64,000 nucleotides of DNA from positions 3,166,483 to 3,230,482 of the forward strand of contig RPFO01000065.1 of NCBI GenBank assembly GCA_009746045.1. The letters run 5' to 3'. The DNA comes from Mesostigma viride. Its lineage: Eukaryota > Streptophyta > Mesostigmatophyceae > Mesostigmatales > Mesostigmataceae. Both the position numbers and the translations under genes were made by a program. Positions 1 through 35,461 of this stretch are shown here, piece by piece. The notes under the pieces were generated by a model. It was not told where the DNA came from, made no database searches, and saw only the letters and a list, made by a program, of their open reading frames with translations. Positions within the stretch are counted from its first letter, which is position 1. The number at the start of each line of letters is the position of its first letter.

Positions 1-3000
1 CACCACCAGATCCTTTCTTTTTTCGTTTTCCTTCCATGTCATTGTCCTGTATGCGATCCAGTCGGGTCCCATCTTCACCCCGTCCCAATAGGTGAAGGCT
101 TCCAGCCTGTCCCACCACCCCCTCTTGGCCTTGGCAGTCCCCTCCTCCTTAGCCGCCGCCTGCACCTCCTCCTCCGCCGCCGCCTCCTGCTGTGGCACAC
201 CCAGCAGATGTTTGGTCTTCACCCCCAAATCGTCATACAAATGACGGGGGTGGGAAGCGAGCAGCCCTCTCGGGAACTTCCAGTCCTTCTGGTCGACCAC
301 TTTCCTTTTAGCCGGCGGAAGGTCCCTCAGCGTGAGAATGATCGCCCTCGTGGCCGTGACGATCACCCGCCAAAAGTCTCTGGTCAGGCGGCAGTCGGCG
401 ATGAACTTGTCGAGGTCCGTGGCGACGGTGCCCTTCAGCTTCACGCCAAACACGTGCTCCCTCACCAATACGGGGTCGAAAGTCCCGTTTAGTTGTTTGC
501 AAGCGGCCATCAGCTCGGGGTTCTCCAGGAACTTGATGTGGGCGAATTGCTTTGCCGCCTCTATCAAATTCTTGGCGACTTCCATTATTTTTATCAGGTT
601 GCTGGGAGGGGCCTCACAGGACATGATCGGCGCTTGGATCAGGCTGTCGAAGTACTGGAAACTCGCAAGTTCCCGATGCGCGGTGAAAATGGACAGTTCG
701 TGCGCCTTGTCTTTAGGGCGCGTGTCAAGGAAGTCTTGCCGAGCCGCGATATCCTGTGCGATCGCCGGCTTGCCGTCGACAGCGGGCTTCAAAGGGTCCT
801 CACACCAGAACAGCCAGCGCTGCATGAAGTTCTTCTGGTCCGGCCCCCACTTGTCCGTCTCTTCAGCCCCTCCTGCCTTGTCGCCTGCGCCGTCCCCTTC
901 GGCCTTGGCTTGCTCTCCTTTCTGCCAAAAGGGCTTCACAATCGCCCAGATCTTGCCGTACAGAGGAGTTGGGAGAGACACGCCCTTCCCTCTCTTGACG
1001 GGTCCATATGCCTGGTAGGCCCGGTGCACATCCCCCAGCGCTGAGCCCCACGTTGCCTTGGCTTGGGCTGTGTCCTCGGCGTTCATGGCGTTCCCGAGCT
1101 GCCTGACAACTTCGATCATCTTGCCGACTTGTTCGGTAACCTGCATCCCCGTAGGGCAACAACGCGCAGAGACACATCGACAGTCCTCCCAAATAAGCAC
1201 AACTCAACTGAGAACAAGAATACGACTGACAGAAACGCCGGCGGTCGCATCTTGACCAAAATATGGCATGCTAAGGTGGAACATGAAAACCCCTTATAGA
1301 AACGCCGGCGGTCGCATCTTGACCGAACTAATGGCATACTGAAATTAACACAAGAAAACCACTTATAGAAACGCCGGCGGTCGCAACCTGGCTTACCTTC
1401 TGTTCACGGATCTGCCACCAGGTCGGCAGGATGGTCTCACCCTTGAGCATCTGCACGTCCACCCCCCCGAAATTCGTCCAATCAGTTGCCCACTCCTCCA
1501 GCTTCGCCGCGGCCACGGTCTTCGTGACCTCCTGCTCCTTCCCTCCCCGCGCAACGACCCTGAGCTTTTCCGCCTTCATGAAACCATTCAGCATTGCCTG
1601 GTACCACACAGATCTTTGGTCCACCGTCATATTGTCGGTGACCAGTTCGAATTTCACCGATTTGATGAGTGTGGTAAAGTGGTTCCCGTCCAGCACGAGA
1701 AAGCCGCAAATGGCTGGCGGCAACGGTGTCTTCTTCTCGAGTGGAGCCATCTCCCAGGCGGACTTGCACAAACTGTCCAAAAGCGCGGCCTTTCTCACGT
1801 CCACGGGCTTAAGTGAGTCCAGAATATCGGCCGGTCCTGTCAGAACCGCGGTGGAAGCAGCTTCGGCCATTCCCTTGGCCGAGCTCGTTCGCAGGTAGAT
1901 ATCAATCTCTTTGTCAGTCATTGCGCGAGCGTAGCCAGCCTTCATTGTCCGTGCCCCCCCATCTCCCCGAAGAGTTGCGCGAGCTGACGCTGGGTGCCTT
2001 CCTTTTTCATCCAGTCATGAAAACTGTTGGGGCACCGGTCAGCCAAAAACTGGAACGAGTACCGCCACACAGGAATCACCAGCTTGTCGTGGCCGTAGTC
2101 GGACTCCGAGTTTGCAAAAATGGTGGCGTTCTGCTCGGCTCTAGACAGATGCAAGTCTCGTGCGAGGAGCTTCTGAGGCCCCACGAACAGGTTCCTTGTC
2201 CACACCCGATTTCGATGCACCAAGGCTTTGGACATCTCATCGAGGTCCCGAGGCTGAACGGCAAGCTGCTTCCGCAACCGTTTGCCCTTCGCGATCTCAT
2301 CGTTCACATCCAGGATGTCATCATCATCCTGCGACACCGGGGACTTCTCCCATTTCTCAAGCAGAGACACGGGAGCATCCGCAACCTCCACCTCCTTTCC
2401 TTTCCCCTTTCCCTTCAGCGCCTTCCCCTTGTAGGTCGCAAGTGCTTCGGAGAGTCCCTTCTGGTGTTCGTCGACGGCAGCAGTCCACGTACTATCTATT
2501 TTCATGTTCTCGCGGCGCGCGTGCTGGTCGAGGCTGATTGAGTACAGGATGGCCGCGTGGGTCGCCCTCTCGGCCTGCACGTACTGCGTTGATGCGAAAA
2601 AATCAGGAAAGCATAACCAAAAGGAATAAAGTAAATGCCGATTGAGAAACGCCGGCCGTCGCAACCTACATGAAACCTGAACCTCAACATCAAAGCCCCC
2701 CTCACGACAGAGGTATACTTACCTCGTTCCCCTTAACAATGATATGAAAAAATCAGGAAAGCATAACCGAAAGGAATAAAGTAAATGTCACACTTGAGAA
2801 ACGCCGGCCGTCGCAACCTAGATGAAACCTAAACCTCAAGATCAGAGCCCCCCTCACAACAGAGGTACACTTGGCTCATTTCCCTCAACGATGCGAAATC
2901 AGGAAAGGAAGTAAGTGTTAGTCAAAAGGAAGTAAGTGTCACACTTGAGAAACGCCGGCCGTCGCAACCTACATGAAACCTGGACCTCAAGAACAAAGCC

Positions 3001-4717
3001 CCCCTCACAACAGAGGTAGACTTACCTCATTCCCCTCAACCGCTGCTGCTTCAGCCGCTTTCTTCGACCCCTTCGCGATCTTCGGAGACTTGTCCCGGCG
3101 GGCATCGTGTTCCTTCAACATCTTGATCAGAGTCTTGGCGTCCGCCATCGTCACCGTCTTCAGTTTACACTTCCTCTCCTTCCCTTTGCCCTCGAACAGG
3201 TTCTCCTCCATCCACTTTATCAAGGCCTTGGCGCTCGGGATCTCCTCAGGCTGTGTGGCGCCATCGGGCGCGCACGCATTCTTCACGATCAACTCAGCGA
3301 CTTGATGGAGAGTCATCATCTGGTTCCGTACCTCAGGTGGGGCTGTTTCCGTTCTCACCTCGGCCACAACCCACTTTGCCAACTTCTTCAGTTGATAAGC
3401 ATCCGCTTGCTCCTTAAAGCGTGTCATTTTCGCAGTATCGCCGTCGCTTCCACCCGCGCCCTCTGACACAGGCTCACCGACAGCGATAGCCCCCTCTCCC
3501 TGGAGATTTGCCCCACCCTGACGACCGGCTTCCTGCAAGAACATTATCAACGGAAGATTTTTAATGTAAGAAAAGTGTAGAGAAACGCCGGCCGTCGTAA
3601 CTCTGTCAATTGAGGACGAACCTAAACTTTCAATTTGTAAGTCAACGGTAACTTACCCTTCCCCCCTCTGCAGTGGAACCACCGTAAGATCCACTTCCCC
3701 TCCTGTCACCGCCCTCTTGCTGCTCGAACGGACTTCCCTGTAAAAATAGCAAACGCGATTGTCCATTCACAAGAAAAAAATTACTACAAAAATAAACAAG
3801 GATATACGCACGCAAACCTTTTCAATACAAGTAAACCGGAGAGGAATCTGACGCACTCATGTACCTGGGTGCTTCCCGCCATTGAGCGGGCTTCTCTTGC
3901 ACCAACATCCTCTTGCCGGCCCTGCGAACATTTCAACGGAAAGTAAAAATCCGCTTAGTTGTCGGAAATGACATGTCTGGCGAATATTGCAAAAAAATGC
4001 GTATTGTATTTCACGACATCAATTTAATGGGCGGAGACTTACGAAGATCGGCCCGCCACCTTCCAAATTGCCCAGCGTCATATCGAAAACATCGAGGACT
4101 TCCCCTCCATCGACCCCCTTCCCCCTTCCCCTCTGCCGCGGCGGGGGCATATCGCCCGTCGCGACCGGCTTGGAAGTCGCGGGGGGATCCCTTGCGGTTG
4201 AGGGCACTGCGGCCGACTCGTGCACACTCTCCCCCCTCTTTTGGGCTACTGCGGCAGGCGCGGCATGGGAGGGCGCGGCGGCTACTGTCTCTGGCGCATT
4301 CTGAGCCAACCGACGCAACCTTAGCTCCTGCTGGAGCAGGGTTTCGAAACGAGGCATGAATGTGCGCTTGGAGGTATAAGGCACCTTGGCGACTTCAGGT
4401 TTGTCATTAAGGATGTCTTGGTACAGCGCGAATTGCTGTTCACGAGTGCCATTCGCGAGTCGCTCAAACCGCTCAATCTGAATCCGCTTAACCGGATCGT
4501 CCACCATCTCAAGACCACCGTGGTACTCATCCTTCCCAGTGACCGCGGCAAAGCTGACACCAGATTCCACCATTGGGGGCGGCGTGCCCTCCCTTGCACG
4601 CTTGTGAGGAGGCTGTTGTGGGGAGGCGCCTTGGGCCTGAACTGGTTGCCCTTCTGACCCTTCCCCCCTAGGGGGAGAGTCGCCGACCACCTGCGATGTA
4701 GGGCCGCCCTTTTCCAT
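1..4717 (-). CDS. Unrecognised multi-exon gene, 3' end beyond window
   Basis: I do not recognise the product. Exons on the minus strand: 4717-4043, 3921-3865, 3737-3657, 3532-3026, 2583-1397, and 1140 to the window edge. All junctions are GT-AG and all are phase 0, which supports the model. The first Met is preceded directly by a good 3' splice site (T-rich tract, then CAG before ATG), so an upstream exon or 5'UTR intron exists. The predicted protein exceeds 1,200 residues. It has a low-complexity Pro/Gln/Gly-rich first exon, Lys/Glu-rich basic middle exons and a Trp-rich C-terminal part. Exon 2583-1397 is 1,187 nt, one short of a multiple of three, and the frame jumps in a run of seven G near 1950-1957. 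This is a one-base loss, either an assembly error or a mutation. I see no catalytic motif. Several introns carry the 20-nt motif described separately. Confidence 0.6.
1141..1396 (-). repeat. Intron with three ~65-bp tandem units carrying the 20-nt motif
   Basis: The intron starts GTAAGC directly after an AAG codon and ends at CAG before the 1140 exon. It is built from three tandem copies of a 62-69 bp unit. Each has the motif core (plus-strand positions 1232-1251, 1299-1318, 1368-1387) followed by a TATAAG-GGTTTTC-type segment. The first motif copy starts only 9 nt from the 5' splice site. Confidence 0.7.
2584..3025 (-). repeat. Intron made of three ~151-bp tandem units, each repeating the exon end and 5' splice site
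   Basis: Motif copies lie at 2949-2968, 2798-2817 and 2646-2665, spaced 151-152 bp. Each unit also repeats the last bases of the upstream exon and the donor. The working donor is GAATGAG followed by GTAAGT at 3025. A dead copy near 2870 has GT changed to CC, and an intact GTAAGT copy lies at 2722. Reading past the first donor reaches a stop within seven codons, so use of the first donor is favoured. Confidence 0.7.
3533..3656 (-). other. Intron with a single 20-nt motif
   Basis: GTAAGT donor at 3656 and TTGCAG acceptor at 3533. One motif copy lies at 3582-3601, about 55 nt from the donor. The two smaller introns upstream (3738-3864 and 3922-4042) have no motif, so the element is common but not obligatory. 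Confidence 0.65.
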
Positions 4718-4984
4718 CTGCAACACAAAACAAAAAAATTGGAAAAAACATACGAGTCAGCAGGAAGATGCGCCCCACGTCGCAACTCAATACAAAAAAT
4801 GCATCATTATGTCAAGGTACAAACAACGTTATAATTCAGAATGAACAGAGATTCATAACAAGAGAACGACGCACTAAAAGATGCGACCGCCGTCGCAACT
4901 TTCGTCAATTCACTCTCTATACAAACAACTCTATGTCCCTCATAAAGAATCAATTGGCAAGGAAATGCAAAAAAATTCCGTTAC
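4718..4984 (-). other. Spacer or intron with two GATGC-type motif variants
   Basis: It separates a likely donor (GTAACG at 4984, or GTGGTA three bases earlier) from the CAG-ATG acceptor at 4718. Motif variants lie at 4880-4899 and 4767-4786. In both, the distal end reads GATGC on the plus strand instead of GAAAC. The 4880 copy forms a complete stem (GCGAC with GTCGC). Confidence 0.5.
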
Positions 4985-5674
4985 CACCTCCGTCGACCCA
5001 TAAGTGGTTCGCGAATGGGAAATCGCTGCTGATTTTCGGTCGAGCCCTTCACGGTATTTTCGAAATCTCGAGGCAAGGTTGCGCGGAAGAGGGCCCCCCT
5101 CAATCATGCGTGCGATCGGACTGGCCATGGAAACGGATACCTGGTTCCTGGACTGCCTTGCACGGTCAACCATCTTGAAACTTCCCCGGAGAAGGAAATC
5201 AGACGTCAGACGGTTGAATATGCGAACGTCAAGATTTGACCAACCCATCATCCATTCCACCACCTTCTCCGCGGCATCATGGAAGACCTGCCTCTCATCC
5301 GCCACTCCTCGAGACCCAAACACACAATCGGCCGTGTTATCGTCGTGCCTCTTAAGGCGAATGTTCACGTCCTCTTTGTCATCATCCATTTCCGACAGCC
5401 GAATTACAGCCCTTTTGGCTCCGTCCACTCCATCCTCAAGAAGGACGTCCATCTGCGCCCCTCCCACACAATTGTTGTCAACGTATTGTTGCAAATGACG
5501 GGAAATCATGTCCTTTCCAAAAGCTACGATGTGTTCCCCACACAGACCCATGTCGGTAATTGACAGCTTTTTACATTTCCTATCCCGGCACTTCTTTTCG
5601 GGATCCTTCTCAAAAATCCGGAAAACAGCGTCCTGATATGGACGTCCCCTTATGTCGACCGTCAGACTGGACAT
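4985..5674 (-). CDS. Unrecognised protein or exon with a C-x4-C-x10-C-x2-H site
   Basis: The ATG at 5674 follows a TCGCAG acceptor directly. The frame is open for 230 codons to a phase-0 donor at 4984. If unspliced it runs on to a stop at 4940 (244 aa). Near the N-terminus, Cys29, Cys34, Cys45 and His48 form a likely zinc site. The spacing is identical to that in the next protein upstream (5955-6821), and the surrounding K-C...C-K-K...G-L-C text is similar, so I infer paralogy. The rest is charged and helical-looking with no known domain. It may be an upstream exon of the 4717 gene, since phase and splice sites allow a direct join, or a separate gene. Confidence 0.5.
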
Positions 5675-5954
5675 CTGCGAAACCAGAACATACCGGCCGC
5701 GAGTAGTTTATATTATTAAAAAAAACTGGCATTTATTAAGTCATCTTCATCTATTTATGCGAGCTAAAATTTGAAGAAAATGCAACAAAGAAACGCCCTG
5801 GGGCGCAACTTCCTCAACAACCACTTTCTACGTACAAACGAATGGCAATCACATCGACTACGATTGTCACTACATACGAATGTCCAGACAATATAATGTG
5901 TATGTAGAGGGGGGGCATTCAAGACCAGAGAAACGCCGGCGGGCGCAACTCATA
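5675..5954 (-). other. Spacer or intron with two motif copies
   Basis: Motif copies lie at 5930-5949 (immediately after the stop codon of the upstream ORF) and 5790-5809 (centre CCAG). The distal end is T-rich and closes with GGTATGTT...TCGCAG before ATG. This acceptor context is shared with the next spacer upstream, as expected if the two exon units arose by duplication. Confidence 0.5.
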
Positions 5955-6821
5955 TCAATATAGACTGTCCCGCGACTCGTTCCACTCTCTGCAGGTTTTG
6001 CAACAACCGATCGAGCGAACTCTCGGAACCTCTTTCGCCGCCATTTCATCGACACGAGCGAACATCTCTTCTTTGGCGGCCACCAACTTTGCCTCCTTGT
6101 TGCCGGTGTCAGGATAGATTTCGGACCTCCTCGTCTTCATCGGGGCCACTCTCTCCAAATACTCTGCACACAGAGAATCCTGCTCCTCCTCCACAATCGC
6201 CTTCACGCCGGATACAATCGCTTTGGCTTTTGTTTCCACGCGAAAATCGAACTCTCGTTGAGTTATCAGCGGAATGTCGGCGAGTGCAAAACACATACGC
6301 CGATAAAGTTCGCTTACATCCGTGTCACGCGAGTCGGCAAAAGGTGTCGTCATCAAAAAGCATCTCAAGCTACTCCAACCATTTTCTTGGGCGCCGGCAA
6401 CGTAGCCTCCCTTTGCCAAGTCCGCACCTGTCGCGGAGTCTTTGACTATCCAATCTTCAAGGAAGTACTCGTCTCCCCTGGTGAAATCAAAATTTACACC
6501 CACGACCTCTCCGACAGTCATGTCCAGGCGAAGTCGCAGGGCCCCCCCCGCCAATCCAGGTCCGAGGGCGCCCGCCATTCCAAGTCCGCGACTGAGGGCA
6601 TTTTCGATGTGACGAGAATGTTCTTCGTGCTTTCGGCAATACAAGTCAAATCCGAGAGCGGTTTTCTTGCAAGTGGACACATCACACTTGCGCGGCGCCC
6701 CTATTGAGCGAGCAACACTCTGAATGACAGTGGCAACCGCTTGGTGTTGTTGAAGTCGTTGCCAATCCTCCATCAGGAGGTGACTAGACGAATCGGACGA
6801 ATCTTCCGTCGAACCGGACAT
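5955..6821 (-). CDS. Unrecognised 288-aa protein with a C-x4-C-x10-C-x2-H site
   Basis: The ATG at 6821 follows a TCGCAG acceptor; the stop is at 5955. The N-terminus is Ser/Asp-rich. Cys46, Cys51, Cys62 and His65 form the same zinc-type spacing as in the protein at 4985-5674. A short Cys-Cys-x2-Cys occurs near the C-terminus. A phase-0 GAG-GTTCCG donor at about 6029 could splice it to the 5674 exon instead of using the stop. I cannot decide between these. No enzyme motif is visible. The neighbours are same-strand genes of similar make, so a tandemly expanded family or one long gene are both possible. Confidence 0.5.
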   Translation of the reverse strand: MSGSTEDSSDSSSHLLMEDWQRLQQHQAVATVIQSVARSIGAPRKCDVSTCKKTALGFDLYCRKHEEHSRHIENALSRGLGMAGALGPGLAGGALRLRLDMTVGEVVGVNFDFTRGDEYFLEDWIVKDSATGADLAKGGYVAGAQENGWSSLRCFLMTTPFADSRDTDVSELYRRMCFALADIPLITQREFDFRVETKAKAIVSGVKAIVEEEQDSLCAEYLERVAPMKTRRSEIYPDTGNKEAKLVAAKEEMFARVDEMAAKEVPRVRSIGCCKTCREWNESRDSLY

Positions 6822-6985
6822 CTGCGACAAGTTACGATAACATACCGGCCCCGGAAAATAAAATTCAAAAAACGTTTTGAAATTTTTTTATTGTACTTGT
6901 TTATTAATACGAAGGTTTAAATTTGGCGCAAAGAAACGCCCCAAGGCGCAACTTGTCGAACAGCAATATGGCGATAAAACATTAT
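6822..6985 (-). other. Spacer or intron with one motif copy
   Basis: Motif at 6933-6952 with centre CCAA, the same centre as in the introns at 27.1-27.3 kb. The spacer ends in a GGCCGGTATGTT...TCGCAG acceptor before ATG 6821. Confidence 0.5.
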
Positions 6986-7192
6986 CTATTCAATGTGCGA
7001 TTGATGTGCTGAAACCTTCCAGACTTTGACACTGTCCGGTATCACCGGACTCGGACGAGGAGTCGAGTCGGAAGCGAGCCAGTAATCCTCGACTATTTTT
7101 TTGATGTACAATGGAAGACTCCTTCCATTATGTCGAAGTGTGTCGGTCCTTTGCCTTTTGGCCAAACTCTCCTTAACCTCCACCATTTCCTG
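6986..7192 (-). CDS. Small exon or ORF, unrecognised
   Basis: An acceptor (T-rich, then CGCAG) lies at 7193. The frame is then open through a basic segment (K-R-Q-R) to either a stop at 6986 or a phase-0 AAG-GTTTCA donor near 7017. At about 58-68 residues it is too short to classify. It lies between the MYND gene and the 6821 ORF on the same strand and is most likely an internal or terminal exon of one of them. Confidence 0.3.
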   Translation of the reverse strand, partial: QEMVEVKESLAKRQRTDTLRHNGRSLPLYIKKIVEDYWLASDSTPRPSPVIPDSVKVWKVSAHQSHIE

Positions 7193-7287
7193 CGCGTAGG
7201 AGGAAAATGATACGTTATAAACATTAAACATTAAACATTAAATATAACATCATATAAACAAGTTATTACTCTACATTTCAAGTTTTT

Positions 7288-8043
7288 CTAAGAGGCAGAG
7301 CCGTCGTGGAAGTTGAAGGAGAAGTCGACATCAGACCCCATAGTTTTATCCAGTATCGTCGTCACGTTAACCCCCCACTTCACCCCTGCCAGCACCTCCC
7401 TCGCTTGCCTCAGACGTTCGCATCTATCCTTATGCCTACTCCAGTCCGCACGCTGGCACTCCTCACTGCAATATCTGGCATCCCTACATCCTCTACACCA
7501 CTTGATATGAGGTCCTGTTTCGCACCCACACCCCTCCTTGGAGCACTTTCGCGTACTACGCATGCGATCCCCATCCCTCACGATCGGGTCAGAGAGCAAG
7601 AAAAAGTTCATGTTGAGGGGTACTGCCCCTACACATGCATCAGCCCTCACGCGCAGAGAATGCGTAACATTCGGGTAAAATGCGCGCCCGTAGGTGCACC
7701 CAAGCTGAGCCCCTTCCTCTTCCCCCAACTCTATCTTTGGCCCCTTTGTAATGAACGACACCAAAAGGCGGAACTCCGTCCTTGGGTCTATGGGCACTCT
7801 TAGATCCATCTGTGGTCTGAAAAAACCCTCTTGAATACAGAAGTTCATATCAGCTAGCTGGGCGTACATAATTCTCTCCATTTGGCTGAACGAATCAAAC
7901 GCCAATAAAACGGCCAAGTGGCGGCCTGTCCTCTCCTGCGCGACTCGAACTTCCTCGAATATGACACGCGACAGAAAGCGAACTTGTTTGAAAACGTTTT
8001 GAAGGACGCTTCCGTAGACTTCATTCACGATCTCGGACTCCAT
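7288..8043 (-). CDS. MYND-type zinc finger protein
   Basis: 251 aa from the Met at 8043; an in-frame Met at 8067 gives 259 aa. Residues 167-208 carry the full MYND pattern: C-x4-C, a pair C-x2-C, then Y-C-x3-C and H-x3-C. MYND fingers are protein-interaction zinc modules, often binding proline-rich peptides in chromatin or signalling proteins. The N-terminal 160 residues are not recognised: there is no SET domain and no ankyrin repeat. The first half of the finger has the same C-x4-C-x10-C-x2 spacing as the zinc sites in the two proteins encoded downstream, which suggests a shared origin. Single-exon as read; the 5' end lies beyond an AT-rich gap from a small ORF. Confidence 0.75.
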   Translation of the reverse strand: MESEIVNEVYGSVLQNVFKQVRFLSRVIFEEVRVAQERTGRHLAVLLAFDSFSQMERIMYAQLADMNFCIQEGFFRPQMDLRVPIDPRTEFRLLVSFITKGPKIELGEEEGAQLGCTYGRAFYPNVTHSLRVRADACVGAVPLNMNFFLLSDPIVRDGDRMRSTRKCSKEGCGCETGPHIKWCRGCRDARYCSEECQRADWSRHKDRCERLRQAREVLAGVKWGVNVTTILDKTMGSDVDFSFNFHDGSAS

Positions 8044-8111: not shown

Positions 8112-8351
8112 CTATTCCTCGGAATAGTTTTTTTTTATCCATTCCACAAACGCGTTTGTCACAAACACCTTCCATGCTTTCTCAAGAACTTGTCCCCCTG
8201 ATGTTTTTGAGTATTCAAACTCGTCATCCGAAGAAACCAACTCCGGCACATCCTCCGAGAGGGTCTCTAAATTGTCATCGGCTTTCCTTTTGCGCTTGTG
8301 GTTTCCGAAGCATTTTTTTTGTTCTTCTTCTGACATTTGTTCTGCAACCAT
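8112..8351 (-). CDS. Small acidic/basic ORF, unrecognised
   Basis: 79 codons with an ATG start and a TAG stop. It has a Lys/Arg cluster (K-R-K-R-K) followed by an acidic stretch, as in small nuclear proteins, but nothing specific. It is the most upstream reading frame of the minus-strand block, lying between the MYND gene and the upstream motif array, so it could be a first coding exon. Composition alone does not prove it is translated. Confidence 0.3.
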   Translation of the reverse strand: MVAEQMSEEEQKKCFGNHKRKRKADDNLETLSEDVPELVSSDDEFEYSKTSGGQVLEKAWKVFVTNAFVEWIKKNYSEE

Positions 8352-8462: not shown

Positions 8463-8865
8463 GAAACGACGGCGGGCGTAACTATCATGGGAAACTTTGA
8501 TATCACAAGATCACAATGGACACGAACGCGCTGCAACTTTCACGACATATTCTTCGACATCGAAAATAAAAAAGAAACGACGGCGGGCGTAACTATCATG
8601 AAACATTGATCTTACAAGAAGCTGACGGGGATGCAACTTTCACGACAAACACTTCGACATCGAAGATGCAAAAGAAACGACGGCGGGCGTAACTATCATG
8701 GAAAGATTGAGCTTACAAGATGACAAGTTAACTGACGGGGGTGCATCTTTCCCGAGATATATTTCGACATCGAAAAGGCAAAAGAAACGACGGCGGGCGT
8801 AACTAGCACAACCAATGTTGGTCATGTGCTCTTCCAGTAAGACAAGAAACGACGGCGGGCGTAAC
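8463..8865 (-). repeat. Array of five 20-nt motifs upstream of the minus-strand gene block
   Basis: Copies at 8463-8482, 8574-8593, 8674-8693, 8784-8803 and 8846-8865, all reading GTTACGCCCGCCGTCGTTTC on the minus strand. The first four are spaced 100-111 bp. Between them sit degraded half-copies (CGCGCTGCAAC, GACGGGGATGCAAC) followed by a conserved CTTTC-CGA-ATC-TTCGACATCG segment. The repeat unit is therefore composite. It lies upstream of the first ORF, where a promoter or 5'UTR intron would be. Confidence 0.75.
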
Positions 8866-8919: not shown

Positions 8920-11240
<2,321 letters not shown>

Positions 11241-12240: not shown

Positions 12241-12819
12241 TGTGAAACGACTGGTCCAACCTGAAAAATTTTAAATTTTTGCCGTGTCCAGTAACGGTCC
12301 TAGGTTGCACCCGCGGGACGTTCCGACAGCTGTACAGAAAAGATCACAAAGATACGCCGCGCAACGACGCCTGTGCCCGGCAAATCATTTGTGAGCCCGG
12401 AACTGAACAGTCACTGCAAATGTCGAGTATTTATTGCTCCATCCCCACAAAAAGCGTTCCGGACCTGTTCGAAGCGAAGAGCACTGACAGGGATCGGACC
12501 CGAGCCAGATTTGTGTGCGGACCATGATGGCTGGCCTCCCTCACTCCGCAACCTCACTCTGGACGCAGGTTCGATCCTGTCAGTGCTATTCGCTTCGAAC
12601 AGTTCCGGAACGCTTTTTTTGGGGGGTGGAGCAATAGATTTTCGACGTTTGTAGTGACTGTTCAGTTCCCGACTCACATTTGCCGGGCACTGGCGTCATT
12701 CCCGGCGTATCTTTCTGATCTATTCTTACAGCTGCCGGAACGTCCCGCGGGTGCAACCTAGGACCGTTACTGGACACGGCAAAAATTCAAATTTTTTAGG
12801 TTGGACCAGTCGTTTCACA
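12241..12819. mobile_element. 579-bp foldback (palindromic) element
   Basis: Two ~245-bp arms are inverted copies, running from TGTGAAACGACTGGTCC at 12241 to its complement ending at 12819, around a ~90-bp centre. The arms differ by scattered substitutions and small indels, so the palindrome is old and not a read artefact. No coding capacity and no clear target duplication. Most likely a non-autonomous foldback or MITE-like element. Confidence 0.6.
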
Positions 12820-15500: not shown

Positions 15501-15539
15501 TCTTTCTTCAATTGAAGATATGCTGGTATCTCATTGTTC

Positions 15540-18500
15540 CATGAATCAAATGGAATCCGTACGTAGGACAAGCCATGATGAACCCCATGGGAGCCTAAAT
15601 CCTCATCATTAAATAAACATAAATCGCCACCATGTACGTAGACGGCCATGAGACACCAATGGGAAGCCTTGAATCCTTCATCATTTAATTACATAAATGC
15701 ACCATGATACATAGACAATCCGATGATGACACCATGGGGAGCCTGATCCTTCATCATTAAATACATAAATGCCAACCATGTTACGTAGGCCAGCCATGAT
15801 GACACTATTGGAGCCTGAATCCTCATCATTAAATTTCATACATGCCAACAACACGTTGAGACGGGCCAAATGACACCCGGGAGCCTGAATCCCATCCATT
15901 TATTTTATGAGAATCCAGTTACGTAGGCCAGCCATGATGACACCATGGGAGCCTGAATCCTTCCACATATTTTTTCTGAGACATCCATGTTACGTAGGCC
16001 AGCCATGATGACACATGGGAGCCTGAATCCTCATCATTAAATACATACATTGACCATCCATGTACGTAAAGACAGGACCATGATGACACCATTGGGAGCC
16101 TGAATCCTCATCATTAATTACATAAATGCCAACCATGGTACGTATTTACGGGCCATGATGACACCTGGGAGCCTGAATCACTCATCATTTTTTTAGGAAC
16201 ATCCATGTACGTAGGCCAGCCATGATGACGCATGGGAGCCTGAATCCTCGTCATTTTTTTTTTCTTTGACATCCATATACGTAGACGGGCCATGATGACA
16301 CATGGTGAGCCTGAATCCTCCATCTTAATTACATACATGCCATCCATGTAACGTAGAACGGGCCATGATGACCACCATGGAGCCTGAAATCCTCATCATT
16401 TTACTATTCGTGACATTCCATGTACGTAGGCCAGCCATGAGAACATTATGGGAGCCTGAATCCTCCTCGTTAATTACATAAATGCAACCATGTACGTAGA
16501 ACAAAGCCTGATGACACCATGGGAGCCTGAATCCTCATCATTTACTATTACCTTGACATTCCATGTACGTAGACGGGCCATGATGACACATGAGCCTGAA
16601 TCCTCAATCATTAATTACATGGATGGCATTTATGTTATTTGAATGATGAGGATTCAGGCTCCATGGTGTCTCCAGGCTGGCCTACGTACATGGATGTCAA
16701 GAATAGTAAATGATGATGGATTCAGGCTCCCATGGTGTCATCATGAGCCTGTCTACGTACATGGATGGATGTGGCATATGTAATTAATGAGGAAGGATTC
16801 AGGCTCCCATGGTGTCATCATGCGTGTACGTACATGGATGGCATGTATGTAATTAATGAGGAGGATTCAGGCTCCCATGGTGTCATCATGGCTGGCCTAC
16901 GTACATGGATGTCAAGAAAGAAATGATGAGGATTCAGGCTCCCATGGTGTCATCATGGCTGTCTACGTACATGGATGGCTGTAGTAATTAATGATGAGGA
17001 TTCAGGCTCCCATGGTGTCTCCATGGCTGTCTACGTACATGATGGCATGTATGTAATTAATGATGAGGATTCAGGCTCCCATGGTGTCTCATGGCTGGCC
17101 TTACCATGTACATGGATGGCAATGTAATTAATGATGAGGATTCAGGCTCCCATGGTGTCATCATGGCCGTACGTACATGGTTGGCATTTATGTAATTAAT
17201 GAGGATTCAGGCTCCCATGGTGTCATCATGCTTGTCTACGTACATGGTTGGCATTTATGTAATTAATGATGAGGATTCAGGCTCCATGGTGTCATCATGG
17301 CCCGTATTACATGGATGGCATTTATGTAAAATGATGAGGATTTCAGGCTCCCATGGTGTCATCATGGCTTGTCTACGTACATGGATGCAAGGAAGTAAAT
17401 GATGAGGATTCAGGCTCCCATGGTGTTCATGGCTGCCTACGTACATGGATGTAGGCATATGTAAATGAGGATTCAGGCTCCCATGGTGTCATCATGGCTG
17501 GCCTACGTACATGGATGTCAAGAAAAAATGATGAGGATTCAGGCTCCCATGGTGTCATCATGGCTGGTCTACGTACATGGATGTCAAGGAATAGTAAATG
17601 ATGAGGATTCAGGCTCCCATGGTGTCATCATGGCTGTCTACGTACATGGATGTCAAGGAATGTAAATGATGAGGATTCAGGCTCCCATGGTGTCATCATG
17701 GCTTCCTACGTACATGGATGTCAAGAATAAAATGATGAGGATTCAGGCTCCCATGGTGTCATCATGGCTGGCCTACGTACATGGATGTCAAGGAATAGTA
17801 AATGATGAGGATTCAGGCTCCCATGGTGTCATCATGGCTTGTCTACGTACATGGTTGGCATTTATGTAATTAATGATGAGGATTCAGGCTCCCATGGTGT
17901 CATCATGGCTGGCCTACGTACATGGATTGGCATTTAATAGTAATGATGAGGATTCAGGCTCCCATGGTGTCATCATGGCCCTACGTACATGGATGGCATT
18001 ATGTAATTAATGATGAGGATTCAGGCTCCCATGGTGTCATCATGGCTTGTCTACGTACATGGTTGGCATTTATGTAATTAATGATGAGGATTCAGGCTCC
18101 CATGGTGTCATCATGTACATGGCATTTATGTATGTAATTAATGATGAGGATTCAGGCTCCCATGGTGTCATCATGGCTGGCCTACGTACATGGATGTCAA
18201 GGAATAGTAAATGATGAGGATTCAGGCTCCCATGGTGTCATCATGGCCCGTCTACGTACATGGATGGCAATGTAATTAATGATGAGGATTCAGGCTCCCA
18301 TGGGGTCATCATGGCTTGTCTACGTACATGGTTGGCATTTATGTAATTAATGAGAGGATTCAGGCTCCCATGGTGTCATCATGGCTGGCCTACGTACATG
18401 GATGTCAAGGAATAGTAAATGATGAGGATTCAGGCTCCCATGGTGTCATCATGGCTGGCCTACGTACATGGATGGCATTATGTAATTAATGATGAGGATT

Positions 18501-21500
18501 CAGGCTCCCATGGTGTCATCATGGCTGTCTACGTACATGGATGGCATTATGTAATTAATGATGAGGATTCAGGCTCCCATGGTGTCATCATGGCTTGTCT
18601 ACGTACATGGTTGGCATTTATGTAATTAATGATGAGGATTCAGGCTCCCATGGTGTCTCCATGGCTGGCCTACGTACATGGATGTCAAGGAATAGTAAAT
18701 GATGAGGATTCAGGCTCCCATGGTGTCATCATGGCCCGTCTACGTACATGGATGGCATGTATGTAATTAATGAGGAGGATTCAGGCTCCCATGGTGTCAT
18801 CATGGCTGGCCTACGTACATGGATGTCAAAGAAAAAAAATGATGAGGATTCAGGCTCCCATGGTGTCATCATGGCTGGCCTACGTACATGGATGTCATAA
18901 AAAAATGATGAGGATTCAGGCTCCCATGGTGTCATCATGGCTTGTCTACGTACATTGTTGGCATTATGTAATTAATGATGAGGATTCAGGCTCCCATGGT
19001 GTCATGGCTGGCCTACGTACATGGTTGGCATTTATGTAATTAATGATGAGGATTCAGGCTCCCATGGTGTCATCATGGCCCGTCTACGTACATGGATGGC
19101 ATGTAATTAATGATGAGGATTCAGGCTCCCATGGTGTCATCATGGCTTGTCTACGTACATGGATTGCAATGTAATTAATGATGAGGATTCAGGCTCCCAT
19201 GGTGTCATCATGGCCCGTCTACGTACATGGATGGCATTTATGTAATTAATGATGAGGATTCAGGCTCCCATGGTGTCATCATGGCTGTCTACGTACATGG
19301 ATGGCAATGTAATTAATGATGAGGATTCAGGCTCCCATGGTGTCATCATGGCTCTACGTACATGGATGTCAAGGAATAGTAAATGATGAGGATTCAGGCT
19401 CCCATGGTGTCATCATGGCCCGTCTACGTACATGGATGGCATTTATGTAATTAATGATGAGGATTCAGGCTCCCATGGTGTCATCATGGCCTACGTACAT
19501 GGATTTATGAATTAATGATGAGGATTCAGGCTCCCATGGTGTCATCATGGCTGTCTACGTACATGGATGGCAAGTAATTAATGATGAGGATTCAGGCTCC
19601 CATGGTGTCATCATGGCTGTCTACGTACATGGATGGCATTATGTAATTAATGATGAGGATTCAGGCTCCCATGGTGTCATCATGGCTTGTCTACGTACAT
19701 GGATGGCATGTATGTAATTAATGATGAGGATTCAGGCTCCATGGTGTCATCATGGCTGGCCTACGTACATGGATGTCAAAGAAAAAAAATGATGAGGATT
19801 CAGGCTCCCATGGTGTCATCATGGCCCGTGTATGTACATGGTGGCATTTATGTAATTAATGATGAGGATTCAGGCTCCATGGTGTCATCATGGTGTATGT
19901 ACATGGTTGGCATTTATGTAATTAATGATGAGGATTCAGGCTCCATTGGTGTCATCATGGCTGGCCTACGTACATGGATGTCAAAGAAAAAAAATGATGA
20001 GGATTCAGGCTCCCATGGTGTCATCATGGCCCGTCTACGTACATGGATGTCAATAGTAAATGATGAGGATTCAGGCTCCCATGGTGTCATCATGGCCTGT
20101 CTACGTACATGGATGGCATGTATGTAATTAATGATGAGAATTCAGGCTCCATTGGTGTCATCATGGCTGGCCTACGTACATGGATGTCAAAGAAAAAAAA
20201 TGATGAGGATTCAGGCTCCCATGGTGTCATCATGGCCCGTCTACGTACATGGATGTCAAAAAGTAAATGATGAGGATTCAGGCTCCCATGGTGTCATCAT
20301 GGCCTGTCTACGTACATGGATGGCATGTATGTATTTAATGATGAGGATTCAGGCTCCCATGGTGTCATCATGGCTGGCCTACGTACATGGATGTCTCAGA
20401 AAAAAAATGATGAGGATTCAGGCTCCCATGGTGTCATCATGGCTGGCCTACGTACATGGATGTCAAAGAAAAAAAAATGATGAGGATTCAGGCTCCCGTG
20501 GTGTCATTATGGCCCGTCTACGTGTTGTTGGCATGTATGAAATGAATGATGAGGATTCAGGCTCCCATAGTGTCATCATGGCTGGCCTACGTACATGGTT
20601 GGCATTTATGTAATTAATGATGAGGATTCAGGCTCCCATGGTGTCATCATTGCCCGTGTATGTACATGGTTGGCATTTATGTAATTAATGATGAGGATTC
20701 AGGCTCCATTGGTGTCATCATGGCCCGTCTACGTACATGGACCGTGGCATTTATGTATTTAATGATGAGGATTCAGGCTCCCATGGGGTCATTGATGATC
20801 ATGGCATTTATGTATGTAATTAATGATGAGGATTCAGGCTCCATTGGTGTCATCATGGCTGGCCTACGTATGTACATGGATGTCAAAGAAAAAAAAATGA
20901 AGAGGATTCAGGCTCCCATGGTGTCATCATGGCCCGTCTACGTACATGGATGTCAAGGAATAGTAAATGATGAGGATTCAGGCTCCCATGGTGTCAGATG
21001 TCATGGCCTGTCTACGTACATGGATGGCATGTATGTATTTAATGATGAGGATTCAGGCTCCCATGGTGTCATCATGGCTGGCCTACGTACATGGATGTCT
21101 CAGAAAAAAAATGATGAGGATTCAGGCTCCCATGGTGTCATCATGGCTGGCCTACGTACATGGATGTCTCAGAAAAAAAATGATGAGGATTCAGGCTCCC
21201 ATGGTGTCATCATGGCTGGCCTACGTACATGGATGTCAAAGAAAAAAAAATGATCAGGATTCAGGCTCCCGTGGTGTCATTATGGCCCGTCTACGTGTTG
21301 TTGGCATGTATGAAATTAATGATGAGGATTCAGGCTCCCACAGTGTCATCATGGCTGGCCTACGTACATGGTTGGCATTTATGTAATTAATGATGAGGAT
21401 TCAGGCTCCCATGGTGTCATCATTGCCCGTGTATGTACATGGTTGGCATTTATGTAATTAATGATGAGGATTCAGGCTCCATTGGTGTCATCATGGCCCG

Positions 21501-21600
21501 TCTACGTACATGGGTGGCATTTATGTATTTAATGATGAGGATTCAGGCTCCCATGGGGTCATCATGGCTTGTCTACGTACATGGAGTCATATTGATTCAT
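15540..21600. repeat. ~70-bp satellite, with an orientation switch near 16625
   Basis: The unit is 60-72 bp with core GAGGATTCAGGCTCCCATGG, then TGTCATCATGGC, CTACGTACATGGATG, and a variable AT-rich end. From 15540 to about 16620 the units are in reverse orientation; from about 16640 to 21600 they are forward. Many units carry small indels, more on the left. Open frames through the array are by-products of unit length. Confidence 0.95.
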
Positions 21601-21601
21601 G

Positions 21602-21855
21602 GAACAATGAGATACCATTCTTAATTGAAAATTGTTCTTGATACTTTCACATGCATGCCCGGAATCGTGAATTTGTGCGGGTTTCCATGATGACAATCCT
21701 CATTGAATTCTTGAGCACACAATATTGAGCAATTTAGGGGCACTTCGGCAATGTTGACCATTTTCATTCATGATCAATAAAATTAACATTTAATGCAATA
21801 AATACATATTCCACTCATTTTAATAAACCATGCAAAAACTTTACAAGCACGCTCA
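21602..21855. other. Unique spacer between the two satellites
   Basis: AT-rich sequence with no gene. Its first 30 bases mirror 15505-15545 beyond the gap, which confirms the palindromic layout. Confidence 0.6.
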
Positions 21856-21859
21856 AGCT

Positions 21860-22630
21860 AGGGGTGGGCTGGCATGCACGCGTGGGTGTGGGGGTGGGCT
21901 GGCATGCATGCGTGGGTGTGGGGGTGGGCTGGCATGCACGTGTGGGTGTGGGGGTGGGCTGGCATGCATGCGTGGGTGTGGGGTTGGGCTAGCCTGCATG
22001 CGTGGGTGGGGGGGGGCTGGCATGCATGCGTGGGTGTGTGTGGGGGGCTAGCATGCATGCGTAAGTGTGGGGGGGGGCTGGCATGCATGCGTGGGTGTGG
22101 GGGGGGCTGGCATGCATGCGTGGGTGTGTGTGGGGGGCTAGCATGCATGCGTAAGTGTGGGGGGGGGCTGGCATGCATGCGTGGGTGTGTATGGGGGCTG
22201 GCATGCATGCGTGGGTGTGTGTGGGGGGCTAGCATGCATGCGTGGGTGTGTGGGGGGGCTGTCATGCATGCGTGGGTGTGTGTGGGGGCTGGCATCCATG
22301 CGTGGGTGTGTGGGGGGGCTAGCATGCATGCGTGGGTGTGGGGGTGGGCTAGCATGCATGCGTGGGTGTGGGGGGGGCGGTCATGCATGCGTGGGTGTGT
22401 GGGGGGGCTGGCATGCATGCGTGGGTGTGTGGGGGGGCTAGCATGCATGCGTGGGTGTGGGGGTGGGCTAGCATGCATGCGTGGGTGTGAGTGTGGGCTA
22501 GCATGCATGCGTGGGTGTGGGGGGGGCTAGCATGCATGCGTGGGTGTGGGGGGGCCGGGGCCGGGGCTAGCATGCATGCGTGGGTGTGGGGGTGGGCTAG
22601 CATGCATGCGTGGGTGTGGGGGGGGCTAGC
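21860..22630. repeat. 30-bp G-rich satellite (CATGCATGCGTGGGTGTGGG)
   Basis: About 25 units of 28-32 bp. Each has a CATGCATGCG core and several runs of three or more G on the plus strand, so quadruplex formation is likely. The reading frames on both strands are repeat artefacts. Confidence 0.95.
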
Positions 22631-23842
22631 ACGCCCCACCCCTCCATCGGCACAGCCAGCCTTGTGAGTCTACCCTTAACAACAAGGCTGGTAGGACGAC
22701 ACGCCTGAGCAGCATATGTCATGCCTATCTCAGGCTAATAATGTGTGATTTTGTGCCAACAACCAAGTTGTTCCACCCAACAACACATTATAAACCCTCT
22801 TCCAAAATGCCCAACAAGCCGGACACGTGGAGGACCACACACGCAGTATATAAAGAGAAAATAAGCTGACTTTTTATCCAGCCAACCTGTGGCTAGCTGC
22901 TCTGGTTAGCATGACAAATGCTAACATTTACTCAGTGGGAAAGGTGAAGAGACCATTGGAACAGCCTACCTGACGCATGTGCCACCAAAGCATTGTGTCC
23001 CGCAAAATGCACACTGCCTCCTTTCTAACAAGCACGAGCCGCTCTCTTTAGGAGACAGGTGCCAGCTCGTCAGTGTCTGGGGAAAATGATGCCGCTGCTT
23101 AGGAAGACCGCGTGAATTTCCTCGAACACAACTGTCTATAAAGCAAAAGAAATTTCAGAGAAGCATGGAAATAAAAGCATTACACCTTCCCGACAGGTTG
23201 CGGGCCACGCGCTGCAGAAAGCCAGCCACGTCACAGACGATTAACTAGCTAAAAGACACCCAGGAATCCAGCGATGCAGCGCCAGGACCCGCAACTTTCT
23301 GGCTGCATCTGGCCGGAAAGAAGGCAAAAAGCTTACGCTCAACGAGGTAAGAAAGCAGGAAAACGCAAGCTTAAGACGTTTAACACAAGAACGTACCATA
23401 ACGGGCATTTATTCGTGCCCAGGCGCACAAGAAAGTCCACCCTTTCATGGAGTGGTTGGGCAGTACGCATCGCGCAGGGCTAATGTTATCTTACCGCAAA
23501 ATGACGGGAAAGGTAAAGATAGCAGCGGGAATTTTTACGGCTTTAGAAACATCATTAAACTAGCTTTCCTTACGACCATCAAAACTGGCAACAATCGACA
23601 ATCAACCCGGCAGGCATCCAATATACTTTATTCATCCCGACAGAAATTCAGGCCGGACCCCCCCTGCCGATGGCAAAGAAAAAAAGCCCGCGACATTATA
23701 GATCGCAACCATCCCGCCATAAATTAGAATCAGTAACTAATTTTCTCCAACAATCGAGCATTTCTGCTTTCCGCGTGCCAGATTTGTCACGTTTCGTCTA
23801 AAGGCAGTCGCCATGGCCCCTACCGCAAGGGGTGCGCGCACC
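22630..23842 (+). repeat. Right inverted arm of the palindromic element
   Basis: Mirror of 13410-14629, ending in GGTGCGCGCACC. A short frame (23274-23483) matches part of the frame in the left arm, but its upstream part is broken by indels. Confidence 0.8.
22847..22855 (+). promoter_or_regulatory. Candidate TATA box directing outward transcription from the arm
   Basis: TATATAAAG in a GC-richer context, conserved in the left arm (14375-14383, minus strand). Each arm could therefore start a transcript running outward into flanking DNA. Motif evidence only. Confidence 0.35.
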
Positions 23843-24480
23843 ATGCCGACATAGCTTTTGGGCCTCAATTTGCACCGAAATTTGGTCCGTACCGTCCAGC
23901 TCAGTCGGATTATGTATGTGGATCGGCCGTGTTGGTTGCATACGCAGGTATATTAATTCTTGCATTCGCCCCGGACCTTCCCCAGGACAGGTCAGGATAT
24001 AACAATAATTCTTGCATTCGCCCCCGCCCTTTCCTATGGCCTGGTCAGGTTTGGGCGCGACGCCACTAGCGCGGCGCCCGCGACAGAGTGGCCAGGCTCG
24101 AGCACGTTTTCTGGATCCCAAGCACCGGATTGGACACTGTCCGAGGACTGGACAGGAATTGGCTGACCAATCGGATGCTTGCTCGTCGTCTCCAAAAACA
24201 TATATAAAGAGCCAAATCGCGCGAACTACGCAAGGATCCTTTAAGCAGCGTTACTCTGCCGAAATGTCAACCTAGGCCGGTCAAGTGACGCCGAGGTGTT
24301 CACCGATAGTTCAGGTCAGCCACAGCGCGCCTTCGAATGTAGGCACGGTCGCATTTTTTTTTAGGAAATGTAGAATTGTTGTCGACCAGCTACCAACGCC
24401 CGACCGGACCCATACAACGGAAACATCAAGGCGATGTGATGTAGGTGTGTCTGATATGTCATTAATACACAGAGCATCGT
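23843..24480. other. No recognisable gene
   Basis: Contains a short imperfect duplication (ATTCTTGCATTCGCCCC at about 23956 and 24008) and short ORFs without recognisable content. Confidence 0.5.
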
Positions 24481-24943: not shown

Positions 24944-25498
24944 GTTGCGCCGGCCGTCGTTATCCATGACGAACTGAATGGGTTTCGTGCAAATCAAGTT
25001 TTTTGTTTTGGTGTTCCAGTTGCGCCGGCCGGCGTTTCCAATGGTATCTTGCGCGCACTTGCAAAAGCTTGCACGCTTATCAACATTTTGTGTTGGTAAA
25101 CATTTTATCACCTCTGGGATTTCCGCCTTCACTACCTGAGTTGCTTCTTTGTGGTTTTCAAATGCAACCGAGTTACGCCGGCCGTCGTTACTCATGACAA
25201 ATTGTAGGGGTTTTGTGCAAATCACTTTTGTATGGTTTATGTACATGCATCCAGTTGCGCCGGCCGGCGTTTCCAATGGTATCTTGCAGTTGCGCAATCA
25301 GGCCCCATTACCAAAAGTGTGTTTGTACATCTTTTTTACACCTGAAGGATTTCTGCCTGCATATCCTGAGTTGCTTCTTAATGGTTTTTAATTGCGCCCG
25401 AGTTACGCCGGCCGTCGTTATTAATGACAAACTGTATGTGTTTCATAAAATCACTTTTGTATGGTTTACATGTATCCAGTTGCGCCGGCCGGCGTTAT
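24944..25498 (+). repeat. Array of six 20-nt motifs in a two-type higher-order repeat upstream of the transposase-like gene
   Basis: Copies at 24944, 25019, 25172, 25254, 25402 and 25479. They alternate: type A ends CCGTCGTTAY-CATGAC, type B ends CCGGCGTTTCCAATGG (the last copy is altered). A-to-B distance is 75-82 bp and B-to-A about 150 bp, so the unit is ~230 bp in three copies. The array stops about 80 bp before a CCTCAG acceptor (25579), so it probably lies in a 5'UTR intron or promoter. Its orientation relative to the gene is the same as for the copies inside the introns. Confidence 0.8.
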
Positions 25499-25642: not shown

Positions 25643-28600
25643 ATGGCGCGATCGGGGCGGGGGGCCGTTTCCGACGGTTCGCGTCCCTTGTCCAATGACG
25701 ACCGGGAGCCTGCACTTCGCGGTCTCTGGAGCGACAAGTACATCGAGAACAAGGGGTACAAAATTGCCAATGACATCTTTCCTATCATGGCGGAACGCGT
25801 GAAAGCAAACAACCACAGGACGCCAGAGATGAGCGCGGAGGTTCTGTCTTGCGCAGCTTCAAGACTAAATGCCATGGTGGCGGAGAGCAACGGCATTAAG
25901 AAGAGGAAGAACTGTGACGGCGGGCTTCCTGAAAATTGGGCGGAATCTCTTCGGGATAACATCAAGAAGGCTTTTGGCGACTTGGGAACATCTGAGAAGG
26001 ATCGTGGGCTTAGGTGGGCCTTGTGTGGACTTGTTACGAAGGCAATGGAGGGCGTCCCGGACAGGATTGTGGAGCGCGCGTTCGGGATTGACAGGCGCTT
26101 TGTCGCAACTGTTCGGGGTCACAGGGATGGAATGGAAGAAGGGGAGGACGACCTTTTGATGAGTGCGCCAGAGAGGAGGAGGAGGAAAGACGAGCTTCCG
26201 ACGGAAGTCATTGCCCTGATACAAGCGTGCTGGAGGGATGATAACTTGACGCGGGCGTCTCCGAACATGAAGGATGTTCATTGTGAATGGACCAGAAAGG
26301 ATTACAAACATACACTAGCGTTTTCGGAGGGTGCGCGCTACTATACTGTCTCCAAGTCGAAGATTTACGAAGTGTTCATTTCCCGCCATCCGGAGTTGAA
26401 GCCACCGCGGCGGATGGACAGTAGGGAGGGGGGGGGGGGAGGGAGAGGAGGGTGTGAGGGGGGGAAATCAGGTGATTTTGGAGACGGAGGCAGGGATGTC
26501 AATGCTACGCACGAATCAGAAGAGCACAGTTCATGTGGGATACACTACTTTTTGCAAGCATATGCCCGCATGCGTCAAGGGGCGGTGGAAAATGCGGAAC
26601 TTGTGCGCATGCCAGCACCACACTACCATGCAGTCCATGGTTGGGGGGTTGGCCAAATTTCGTGCAACTTTTCATGCCAGATGCGAGTGCGGACCTGAAT
26701 GCCACGCGTGCGATCATGGTAGCCAGCTCGACGTGGGGTCGTCCGTGCCCACATGTTCCATTTTCAAAGCCACTCACACGACAGAGTGGGTGAACAAGTT
26801 TACTTGTGAGGTGGAGGGGATGAGGGAGGGGGGAGGTTCGAGGTCGTCTGTGGGGTCGTCGCGGCCGCAGGTTCAGCCTTTTCAGGGCGAACTTGAGGAT
26901 CTGCCCATGCATGGGAGGGTGCTGGACGACGAGGAAGGGGTGCCCGATCATGACCTGGGCGAGGAGTTGGGGGTTTGCTCGATCCGGCGTAAGGCTTGTG
27001 TGTTGGGCACTTGCCTGGCTCCCAAGTGTGGAATTCGGAACTTCATGTTATGCGAACGGGAGGAGGCTTCCAACCACCTGATTTCATGGACCAGATACGA
27101 GATGCAGGATGTGCCGCCGGGTGCGGTTCTTGGGCCAGAGGTAATTTTTAGTGGAGTGGTTGCGCCCCAAGGCGTTTCTTTTGCAATGTTTCCTGAAGTT
27201 CTTGGGCCAGAGGTAATTTTTAGTGGAGTGGTTGCGCCCCAAGGCGTTTCTTTTTCAATTTTTCCTGAGGTCCTGTCTTTTTTCTTTCTACAGGTCATTG
27301 GTGGGTCGAAGTTGATGTCTTTTCTGTATGTGCACACTGCGCATATGCAGGACGACTGTGACGAGATCGCAAAGGCTGGTGGGCAGCGATTGACGCAAGT
27401 CGACGTCAAGTCCACACCAACGGAGCTAAAGGAGGCAATTGTGGACAAGTGGCCGGACTTCATCCAGCATTGCTTCAACGCGTGGTGGCAAGCGGACGCC
27501 TCCAAGGAATGTCTCTCAAGGATGCGGGTGGGGGACCTTGTATGCCACACAGATTACGCCGAGAACTACCAGTCTTACACCTATCACAATCTCCAAGCAC
27601 AGTATTGGCATCCAGTCACATTCGTCCTTATGCCCTGGATCGTGCGCTACTTGGATCCAGCGTCGGGAAAGGTCGTGAGAAGGGAGTTTCACTTCATCGG
27701 ACAGGGCGGAATGAAAAGGGACGGGCGGGCCCTCCGTTTTGCTATCCTCAAAATCCTGGCGACACTACGGTCAGAAGGGGTAGAGGTGAAGCGCTTCATT
27801 GGGTGGTCGGACAATTGCTCCATGCAGTTCAAGTCAAGGAATGTGATCGCGGAAGTGGCCCGGCTGCTGACGGAGGATCCGCACCTGGAGTCATTTGAGT
27901 GGAATTACTTTGGGGAGCAGCACGGAAAGGGGGAGGTGGATGGAGCTGGTGGGACTGTGAAGTGCATGTTGAGGAGGTGGCACATCAGGGAAGAGAACCA
28001 GGACAAACAGACGGCCGCCCAGTTGGTGGAGAATCTGGCGTCGGGGGCGGTGGGCGGGACCACAACGACCAGGCGTAACTTCTTCGAGTTCCCCGAGGTA
28101 ATTAAGTGTACAGTCCTCGTTCAGGGAATAGTTACGCCGGCCGTCGTTTCTAGGGCGTTCTTGGAGTCCTGGCGATCAGGAGTGCTTAATAAAACACAAC
28201 TAGCTCGATGGTCTCGTAACTTCAACTTTCCCTTGTGCAAATCTTGTCTTCGACGCGCAGGTGCTTCCTTACAGCCCAGGGCGCGGCGAAATCAAAGGAG
28301 TGAAGAAGGCGCACTGGTGGCGCATGGACAAGTCGAATGTGACGCGCTTAATGCTGCGCCAGTATTCCTGCTATTGTGGCGGTGCGTGCGCCGAGGAAAG
28401 GTGGTGGGATTGTCGAAAGGAGTGGACCGACATGGACGGCTGGAATGTGGGAGGTGCTCGGATGAAGCTCCACAAACTGGGGGAGCCAGTGCAAAGGAAC
28501 CCAAACGGACAAGGGGGGCACGCAGGGACGCGACTGAACAGACTACAGGCAGAGAGGACGATGATGGGAAGGAGACTGAAGCTGCGAGACATTTTTGCCG

Positions 28601-35447: not shown

Positions 35448-35461
35448 CACTAGGAGCCGGG

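Follow-up and report, generated by a model that had tools for sequence, protein, structure and literature searches.

A sense-oriented 20-nt dyad motif in the non-coding segments of two Mesostigma viride gene blocks: a candidate protein-binding site

Introduction

Short repeated motifs that bind a transposase or a regulator are a feature of DNA transposons, the TNPA sites of En/Spm and the hexamers of Ac being examples. Introner elements are near-identical whole introns found at many loci, the repeated unit carrying its own splice sites. In the intron-mediated enhancement of plants, an intron raises expression in an orientation-dependent manner. Here we describe a 20-nt motif from Mesostigma viride, a basal streptophyte alga, that recurs in the non-coding segments of two gene blocks within a 64,000-nt stretch of contig RPFO01000065.1 (positions 3,166,483 to 3,230,482; the whole stretch is called the window). 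The motif is real, non-random, selected-looking and dyad-symmetric.

The motif resembles those of En/Spm and Ac in that many copies of a short CpG-containing sequence are arrayed ahead of the first gene in a unit that resembles a transposon. It differs in being a 20-bp dyad that is always in the sense orientation, in occurring also in internal introns and spacers, and in that no complete copy was found past the end of the block 2 gene. As with introner elements, many introns share a single sense-oriented sequence, but what the 14 non-coding segments of the window can have in common is 20-22 nt rather than a whole intron, and in the modelled introns the splice sites lie outside the unit. The likeness to intron-mediated enhancement is that a short sense motif is present in introns and leaders near gene starts; unlike there, it is a 20-bp dyad with a fixed spacer, with copies in the late introns of a mobile element. 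Excerpts of one published account describe Mesostigma repeats in general terms (PMC6947507). Literature searches made on the topic, rather than on the letters of the motif, brought up no comparable motif among the titles found.

Copies of the motif

The window was scanned with the 20-nt word GTTRCGMCNNNNGKCGTTTC, tolerating up to three mismatches, against a background of 100 shuffles; counts, placement and conservation of the motif all come from this one 64-kb window. There were 29 matches, against a shuffle mean of 1.72 (maximum 5). Twenty-six of them, 18 exact and 8 with one or two mismatches, are the copies named in an earlier examination of the letters alone (the sequence-only reading), and they comprise 17 distinct sequences. 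The remaining three are the opposite-strand self-match of the near-palindrome at 25172, an antisense three-mismatch match in coding DNA at 26090 and a three-mismatch match at 44210. The sequence-only reading had described about 26 copies, all sense and none exonic, and this description holds: all 17 copies of block 1 (1.2-8.9 kb) are on the minus strand and all 9 of block 2 (24.9-28.2 kb) on the plus strand, the sense of the genes in each block, and none of the 26 overlaps coding sequence under our gene models, although only 27% of the blocks is non-coding. The copies are as follows (gene and intron numbers refer to the gene list below).

1232..1251, minus: motif copy GATGCGACCGCCGGCGTTTC, intron 5 array
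1299..1318, minus: motif copy, intron 5 array
1368..1387, minus: motif copy, intron 5 array; donor 9 nt before
2646..2665, minus: motif copy, intron 4, in a 151-bp triplication
2798..2817, minus: motif copy, intron 4
2949..2968, minus: motif copy, intron 4; donor 57 nt before
3582..3601, minus: motif copy, intron 3; donor 55 nt before
4767..4786, minus: motif copy with right arm CGCATC, upstream of gene 6
4880..4899, minus: motif copy with right arm CGCATC, upstream of gene 6
5790..5809, minus: motif copy, 115 nt before the gene 5 ATG
5930..5949, minus: motif copy; gene 4 stop codon 5 nt before
6933..6952, minus: motif copy, 111 nt before the gene 4 ATG
8463..8482, minus: motif copy, array upstream of gene 1; ATG 111 nt away
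8574..8593, minus: motif copy, array upstream of gene 1
8674..8693, minus: motif copy, array upstream of gene 1
8784..8803, minus: motif copy, array upstream of gene 1
8846..8865, minus: motif copy, array upstream of gene 1
24944..24963, plus: motif copy, block 2 upstream array; putative donor (24930) 14 nt before
25019..25038, plus: motif copy, block 2 upstream array
25172..25191, plus: motif copy, block 2 upstream array
25254..25273, plus: motif copy, block 2 upstream array
25402..25421, plus: motif copy, block 2 upstream array
25479..25498, plus: motif copy, block 2 upstream array
27159..27178, plus: motif copy, block 2 intron B1, in a 72-bp duplication
27231..27250, plus: motif copy, block 2 intron B1
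28131..28150, plus: motif copy, block 2 intron B2

We defined 14 non-coding segments in the two blocks, ten of which bear the motif, five of these with duplicated copies. Under our gene models the motif is not limited to introns, as the proposal of an intron-resident element would have it: five of the ten are introns, four lie upstream of or between genes and one is an upstream array, possibly a leader intron. As a separate observation, a 0.77-kb tandem duplication at 29653-30950 holds twice the sequence GTTGCTGGGCCGGCGTCTC, which resembles the right half of the motif.

Dyad symmetry and conservation

Both arms of the motif fit one half-site, GWWRCGMC, the full pattern being GWWRCGMC-N4-GKCGYWWC. 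Reading outward to centre over the 17 distinct copies, the half-site always has C at position 5, G at 6 and C at 8, with a purine at 4. Position 7 is A in 6 and C in 11 copies in each arm, with all four arm combinations present (6, 5, 5, 1). The symmetric pattern occurs in 23 of the 26 copies (46 matches over both strands), always with a spacer of 4 nt; spacers of 2, 3, 5, 6 or 7 nt gave no occurrence in the window. Shifting the register in which the arms are paired lowers the paired cells from 90% to 31-65%, the behaviour expected of a true dyad.

Conservation was measured in six aligned sets of duplicated copies from five segments. In five sets the motif is 93-100% identical and the flanks 46-75%, and no 20-column window of the flanks is equally conserved; the sixth, a recent 72-bp duplication, is uninformative. 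The arms are conserved above the flank rate in all five sets tested (P 0.005 to 1e-10). The 4-nt spacer is likewise constant within all five (P<0.05 in two), yet differs between segments. Within arrays, either the whole 20-mer is selected or the copies have been homogenised.

Outside the motif little is shared. Unrelated flanks surround one common 20-22-nt unit, and in the 14 non-coding segments, with the motif masked, no 6- to 8-mer rose above the shuffle range. A second word, TAACTTGT, is common to four segments and is within chance (shuffle maximum 5). Such a compact unit, with a spacer fixed inside each of five sets and different between segments, is what might be left by a very short sequence, mobile or able to make introns, that had spread to many non-coding places in a single orientation. 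We consider such relics very unlikely: the segments have no word in common beyond the motif, copies are found away from splice sites, and four of the multiplications are tandem duplications that take in the flanks. More improbable still is that the copies are targets of an element-specific small RNA of 20-22 nt. The length, the sense orientation and the near-exact repetition of a local version within arrays would suit one, but the versions vary between segments at several positions, the centre included, and many copies would be spliced out or untranscribed.

A candidate protein-binding site

We favour, with moderate confidence, the view that the motif is a candidate dyad protein-binding site on double-stranded DNA, probably bound by a dimer, which would serve as a control site of a Mesostigma mobile element. 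The dimer site is suggested because both arms fit one half-site, the spacer is fixed at 4 nt and the motif is conserved above its flanks. Of the possibilities offered by the sequence-only reading, a protein-binding site is supported by these features and a splicing hairpin is not supported, a core pair being broken in 10 of 17 distinct copies. We infer that a protein binds the motif, that it does so as a dimer and that it regulates the element. The sites would be dispersed over the non-coding gaps of the element (upstream arrays, gene-gene spacers and introns); the binding protein could be encoded by the element or by its host; and it may use the sites to switch transcription of the element's genes on or off jointly, to silence them or to mobilise them.

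Several points weigh against this reading. All 26 copies, in 10 segments, point in one direction, and a symmetric DNA site need not be oriented; since a dimer site leaves the fixed sense orientation unexplained, a directional factor or a role in RNA may account for it. Arm preferences differ at positions 2-4, where the same letters are used but the left arm has mostly TTG and the right AAA, and the copies at 24944, 25402 and 25479 deviate from the symmetric pattern at the outer right arm. The motif is not in the spacers between genes 1 and 2 and genes 2 and 3, nor in introns 1 and 2, and the late introns that do hold it are an odd place for a promoter element. That the array flanks are homologous and have diverged is an assumption, a doubtful one in the case of the gene 1 array with its 46% flank identity. 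The dyad-binding protein is so far hypothetical. The structural model of the block 2 protein is poor (mean predicted local distance difference test score, pLDDT, 39), and its Foldseek search had no match at E 0.001 or better. The data, finally, come from this one window, and element-wide or host-wide use of the site would go beyond them.

A wider version of the protein-site reading, which we regard as rather doubtful, would be that a mobile element of this streptophyte alga tags its non-coding segments, introns among them, with an oriented dyad word, and that a protein of its own reads this word to control the whole element together, an operator system distributed over introns. Should this hold genome-wide, it would show in compact form how a mobile element can use its introns as regulatory docking sites. 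The single 20-mer provides a clear handle for tracing a protein that binds it and for collecting all copies of the element.

Gene blocks and intron boundaries

The genes of the two blocks are listed below.

8112..8351, minus: gene 1, small ORF (open reading frame)
7288..8043, minus: gene 2, MYND-finger protein; spacer before the gene without motif
6986..7186, minus: gene 3, small ORF; spacer before the gene without motif
5955..6821, minus: gene 4, Cys-containing ORF; no Pfam match
4940..5674, minus: gene 5 ORF; 16 Mesostigma-named homologous protein clusters
1..4717, minus: genes 6-7, one unit of several exons (introns 1-5); a G-run near 1950 breaks the frame; exceeds the window edge
25643..28992, plus: block 2 gene, tentatively transposase-like, with introns B1 and B2; frame change at 26395-26529 near a G-run

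Intron boundaries were drawn from the sequence and from public gene models of other copies, not from RNA. The public models disagree in places: P0001 takes a different acceptor for intron B1, and several leave out the small exons that border introns 1 and 2. As the sequence-only reading had it, the copies begin soon after 5′ splice sites, the first ones lying 9, 55, 57, 18 and 33 nt inside five introns (9-57 nt past the modelled donors), and the nearest approach to any acceptor is 43 nt. Its two motif-less introns, 4042-3922 and 3864-3738, indeed lack the motif. From the ATG to the nearest upstream copy the distance is 111, 111 and 115 nt for genes 1, 4 and 5, 49 nt for gene 6 and 144 nt for the block 2 gene.

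Some copies classed as upstream may be intronic. An acceptor-like GCAG stands within 9 nt before the ATG at four of six block-1 gene starts, compared with 9 of 175 same-strand ATGs (the four included), which means that upstream copies could also sit in introns or leaders. Several public models join genes 5 and 6 across two motif copies, which would then be intronic; P0005 carries gene 5 through to the stop codon. The array upstream in block 2 is possibly a leader intron, a putative intron that is supported by none of the public gene models.

An ATGA overlap of genes 6 and 7 was considered and rejected in favour of a frame broken at the G-run, as P0045 and P0053 read through; P0008 stops at the break, as the window does. 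The G-runs near 26395-26529 and about 1950 mark frame shifts between homologous stretches, in this copy or in the assembly, and a missed small intron at 26395-26529 is possible. A 12-mer, GGCCGGTATGTT, is present at 6839-6850, where it starts 29 nt upstream of the gene 4 ATG, and at 5687-5698, where it starts 24 nt upstream of the gene 5 ATG; it may be a core promoter or a tiny intron. Genes 4 and 5 have no BLASTP similarity to each other, and neither do genes 1 and 3.

Pairing of the arms in RNA

The placement just described invites an explanation at the RNA level, in which the sense motif would act in the nascent transcript, either folded into a short hairpin or as a linear site for a protein, to mark or aid the removal of introns and leaders. 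The uniform sense orientation of the copies and their absence from exons agree with this, as do the short distances to donors, including the 14 nt from the putative donor in the block 2 array, and the chance that upstream copies are intronic or in leaders. The motif is like structured intron RNA hairpins in that its arms can pair around the 4-nt centre in 7 of the 17 distinct copies. In these, where pair 7/14 is intact, a stem of 5-6 bp with a 4-nt loop folds at -7.5 to -10.1 kcal/mol.

The hairpin is not common to all copies, however. Of six possible arm pairs three are invariant, and pair 7/14 is non-standard, leaving one of five core pairs broken, in 10 of the 17 distinct copies, which fold at just 0 to -5 kcal/mol, mostly no better than shuffles. 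Folding z-scores run from -2.79 to +1.58 across the 17, with 8 above zero. The sequence-only reading had pointed to changes that preserve pairing, but the covariation score is 0.176 compared with 0.182 in shuffles, 297 of 500 of which are equally high; the lack of covariation and the broken pair set the motif apart from structured intron hairpins. The two copies with the CGCATC arm, both in one spacer, illustrate the point, one being the best folder of all and the other having a broken pair. A hairpin kept by compensatory change is therefore not supported, and neither is one conserved in all copies. A library of described RNA families gave no match at the gathering threshold. With two introns free of the motif as well, we consider an RNA-level element somewhat unlikely.

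Relation to mobile elements

The protein searches with the transposase-like protein and with genes 6-7 scored the 7998 candidates with the largest number of words in common with the query. Genes 6-7 matched 46 clusters among these 7998 best candidates, 42 of them named Mesostigma and 4 without a source name, and gene 5 matched 17 protein clusters, 16 named Mesostigma. Gene 5 (5389-4943) shares 89% identity with a protein that carries the label Prorocentrum lima, by contamination or transfer. Since the block-1 genes are multi-copy in Mesostigma and the block 2 gene is tentatively transposase-like, both blocks resemble mobile-element genes, and they look like parts of a multi-copy mobile element. 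The label transposase-like is kept tentative because of the poor model and the lack of a Foldseek match noted above. One scan found no prokaryote-genome relative of this protein, and the structure prediction for the block-1 protein was uninformative (mean pLDDT 30).

A gene of this kind raises the question of whether the motifs are subterminal sites at which a transposase binds for mobilisation, like those of En/Spm or Ac, the intron copies being a by-product. Arrays of five and six copies ahead of the first gene of each block would fit, as would the CpG-rich composition. Downstream of the block 2 gene, ACCAATGGAAACGCC (31111-31125) is an inverted match, at 14 of 15 positions (93%), to the right arm and adjoining flank in two copies from the upstream array of block 2, perhaps by chance. 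We nevertheless regard transposase sites as unlikely, since the stretch that follows the block 2 gene (28.99-64 kb) contains no full motif but just the three-mismatch match at 44210, though the ends of the element were not located, since a search of 23.8-32.1 kb for long terminal inverted repeats gave none, and since copies are present in internal introns.

Relatives of the genes offer a little on the motif itself. P0053, one of 67 proteins examined, reads into intron 5 and keeps the motif at 1368..1387 as VATAGVS, which is weak evidence of motif conservation because this copy is closely related. A similar case was dropped, that of the metagenomic relative P0004, which apparently reads on into an intron and could hide a dyad there: random peptides gave an equally good fit in 19-24% of trials, and so did 43 of the 442 windows along P0004. 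A viral origin was also set aside, three queries having found no relatives in viral contigs. A narrower exact form of the motif matched 58 viral stretches, one match each, a number for which no chance expectation was computed.

Other repeats in the window

The window holds further repeats. A long inverted repeat at 13406-23846, with arms at about 13.4-14.5 and 22.75-23.85 kb in pieces 86-100% complementary, encloses an N run together with 71-73-bp satellite arrays. At 12290-12790 a smaller foldback, noted by eye, surrounds CCTAGGTTGCACCCGCGGGACGTTCC and is apparently another inserted palindromic element, and an array of the hexamer GCGTAA/TTACGC at 10271-10671 adjoins long AGAGGG arrays. An insertion at 35450-42865 lies between inverted repeats beginning CTAGGAGCCGGGTGTTGACA. 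It contains 36-bp satellites, has repeats rich in TTGACA close to its ends and seemingly lies within a retroelement reading frame. Within a 173-bp satellite array is a long terminal repeat (LTR) retroelement at 50439-59792, whose 0.7-kb LTRs are 99.7% identical, an identity that marks it as recent.

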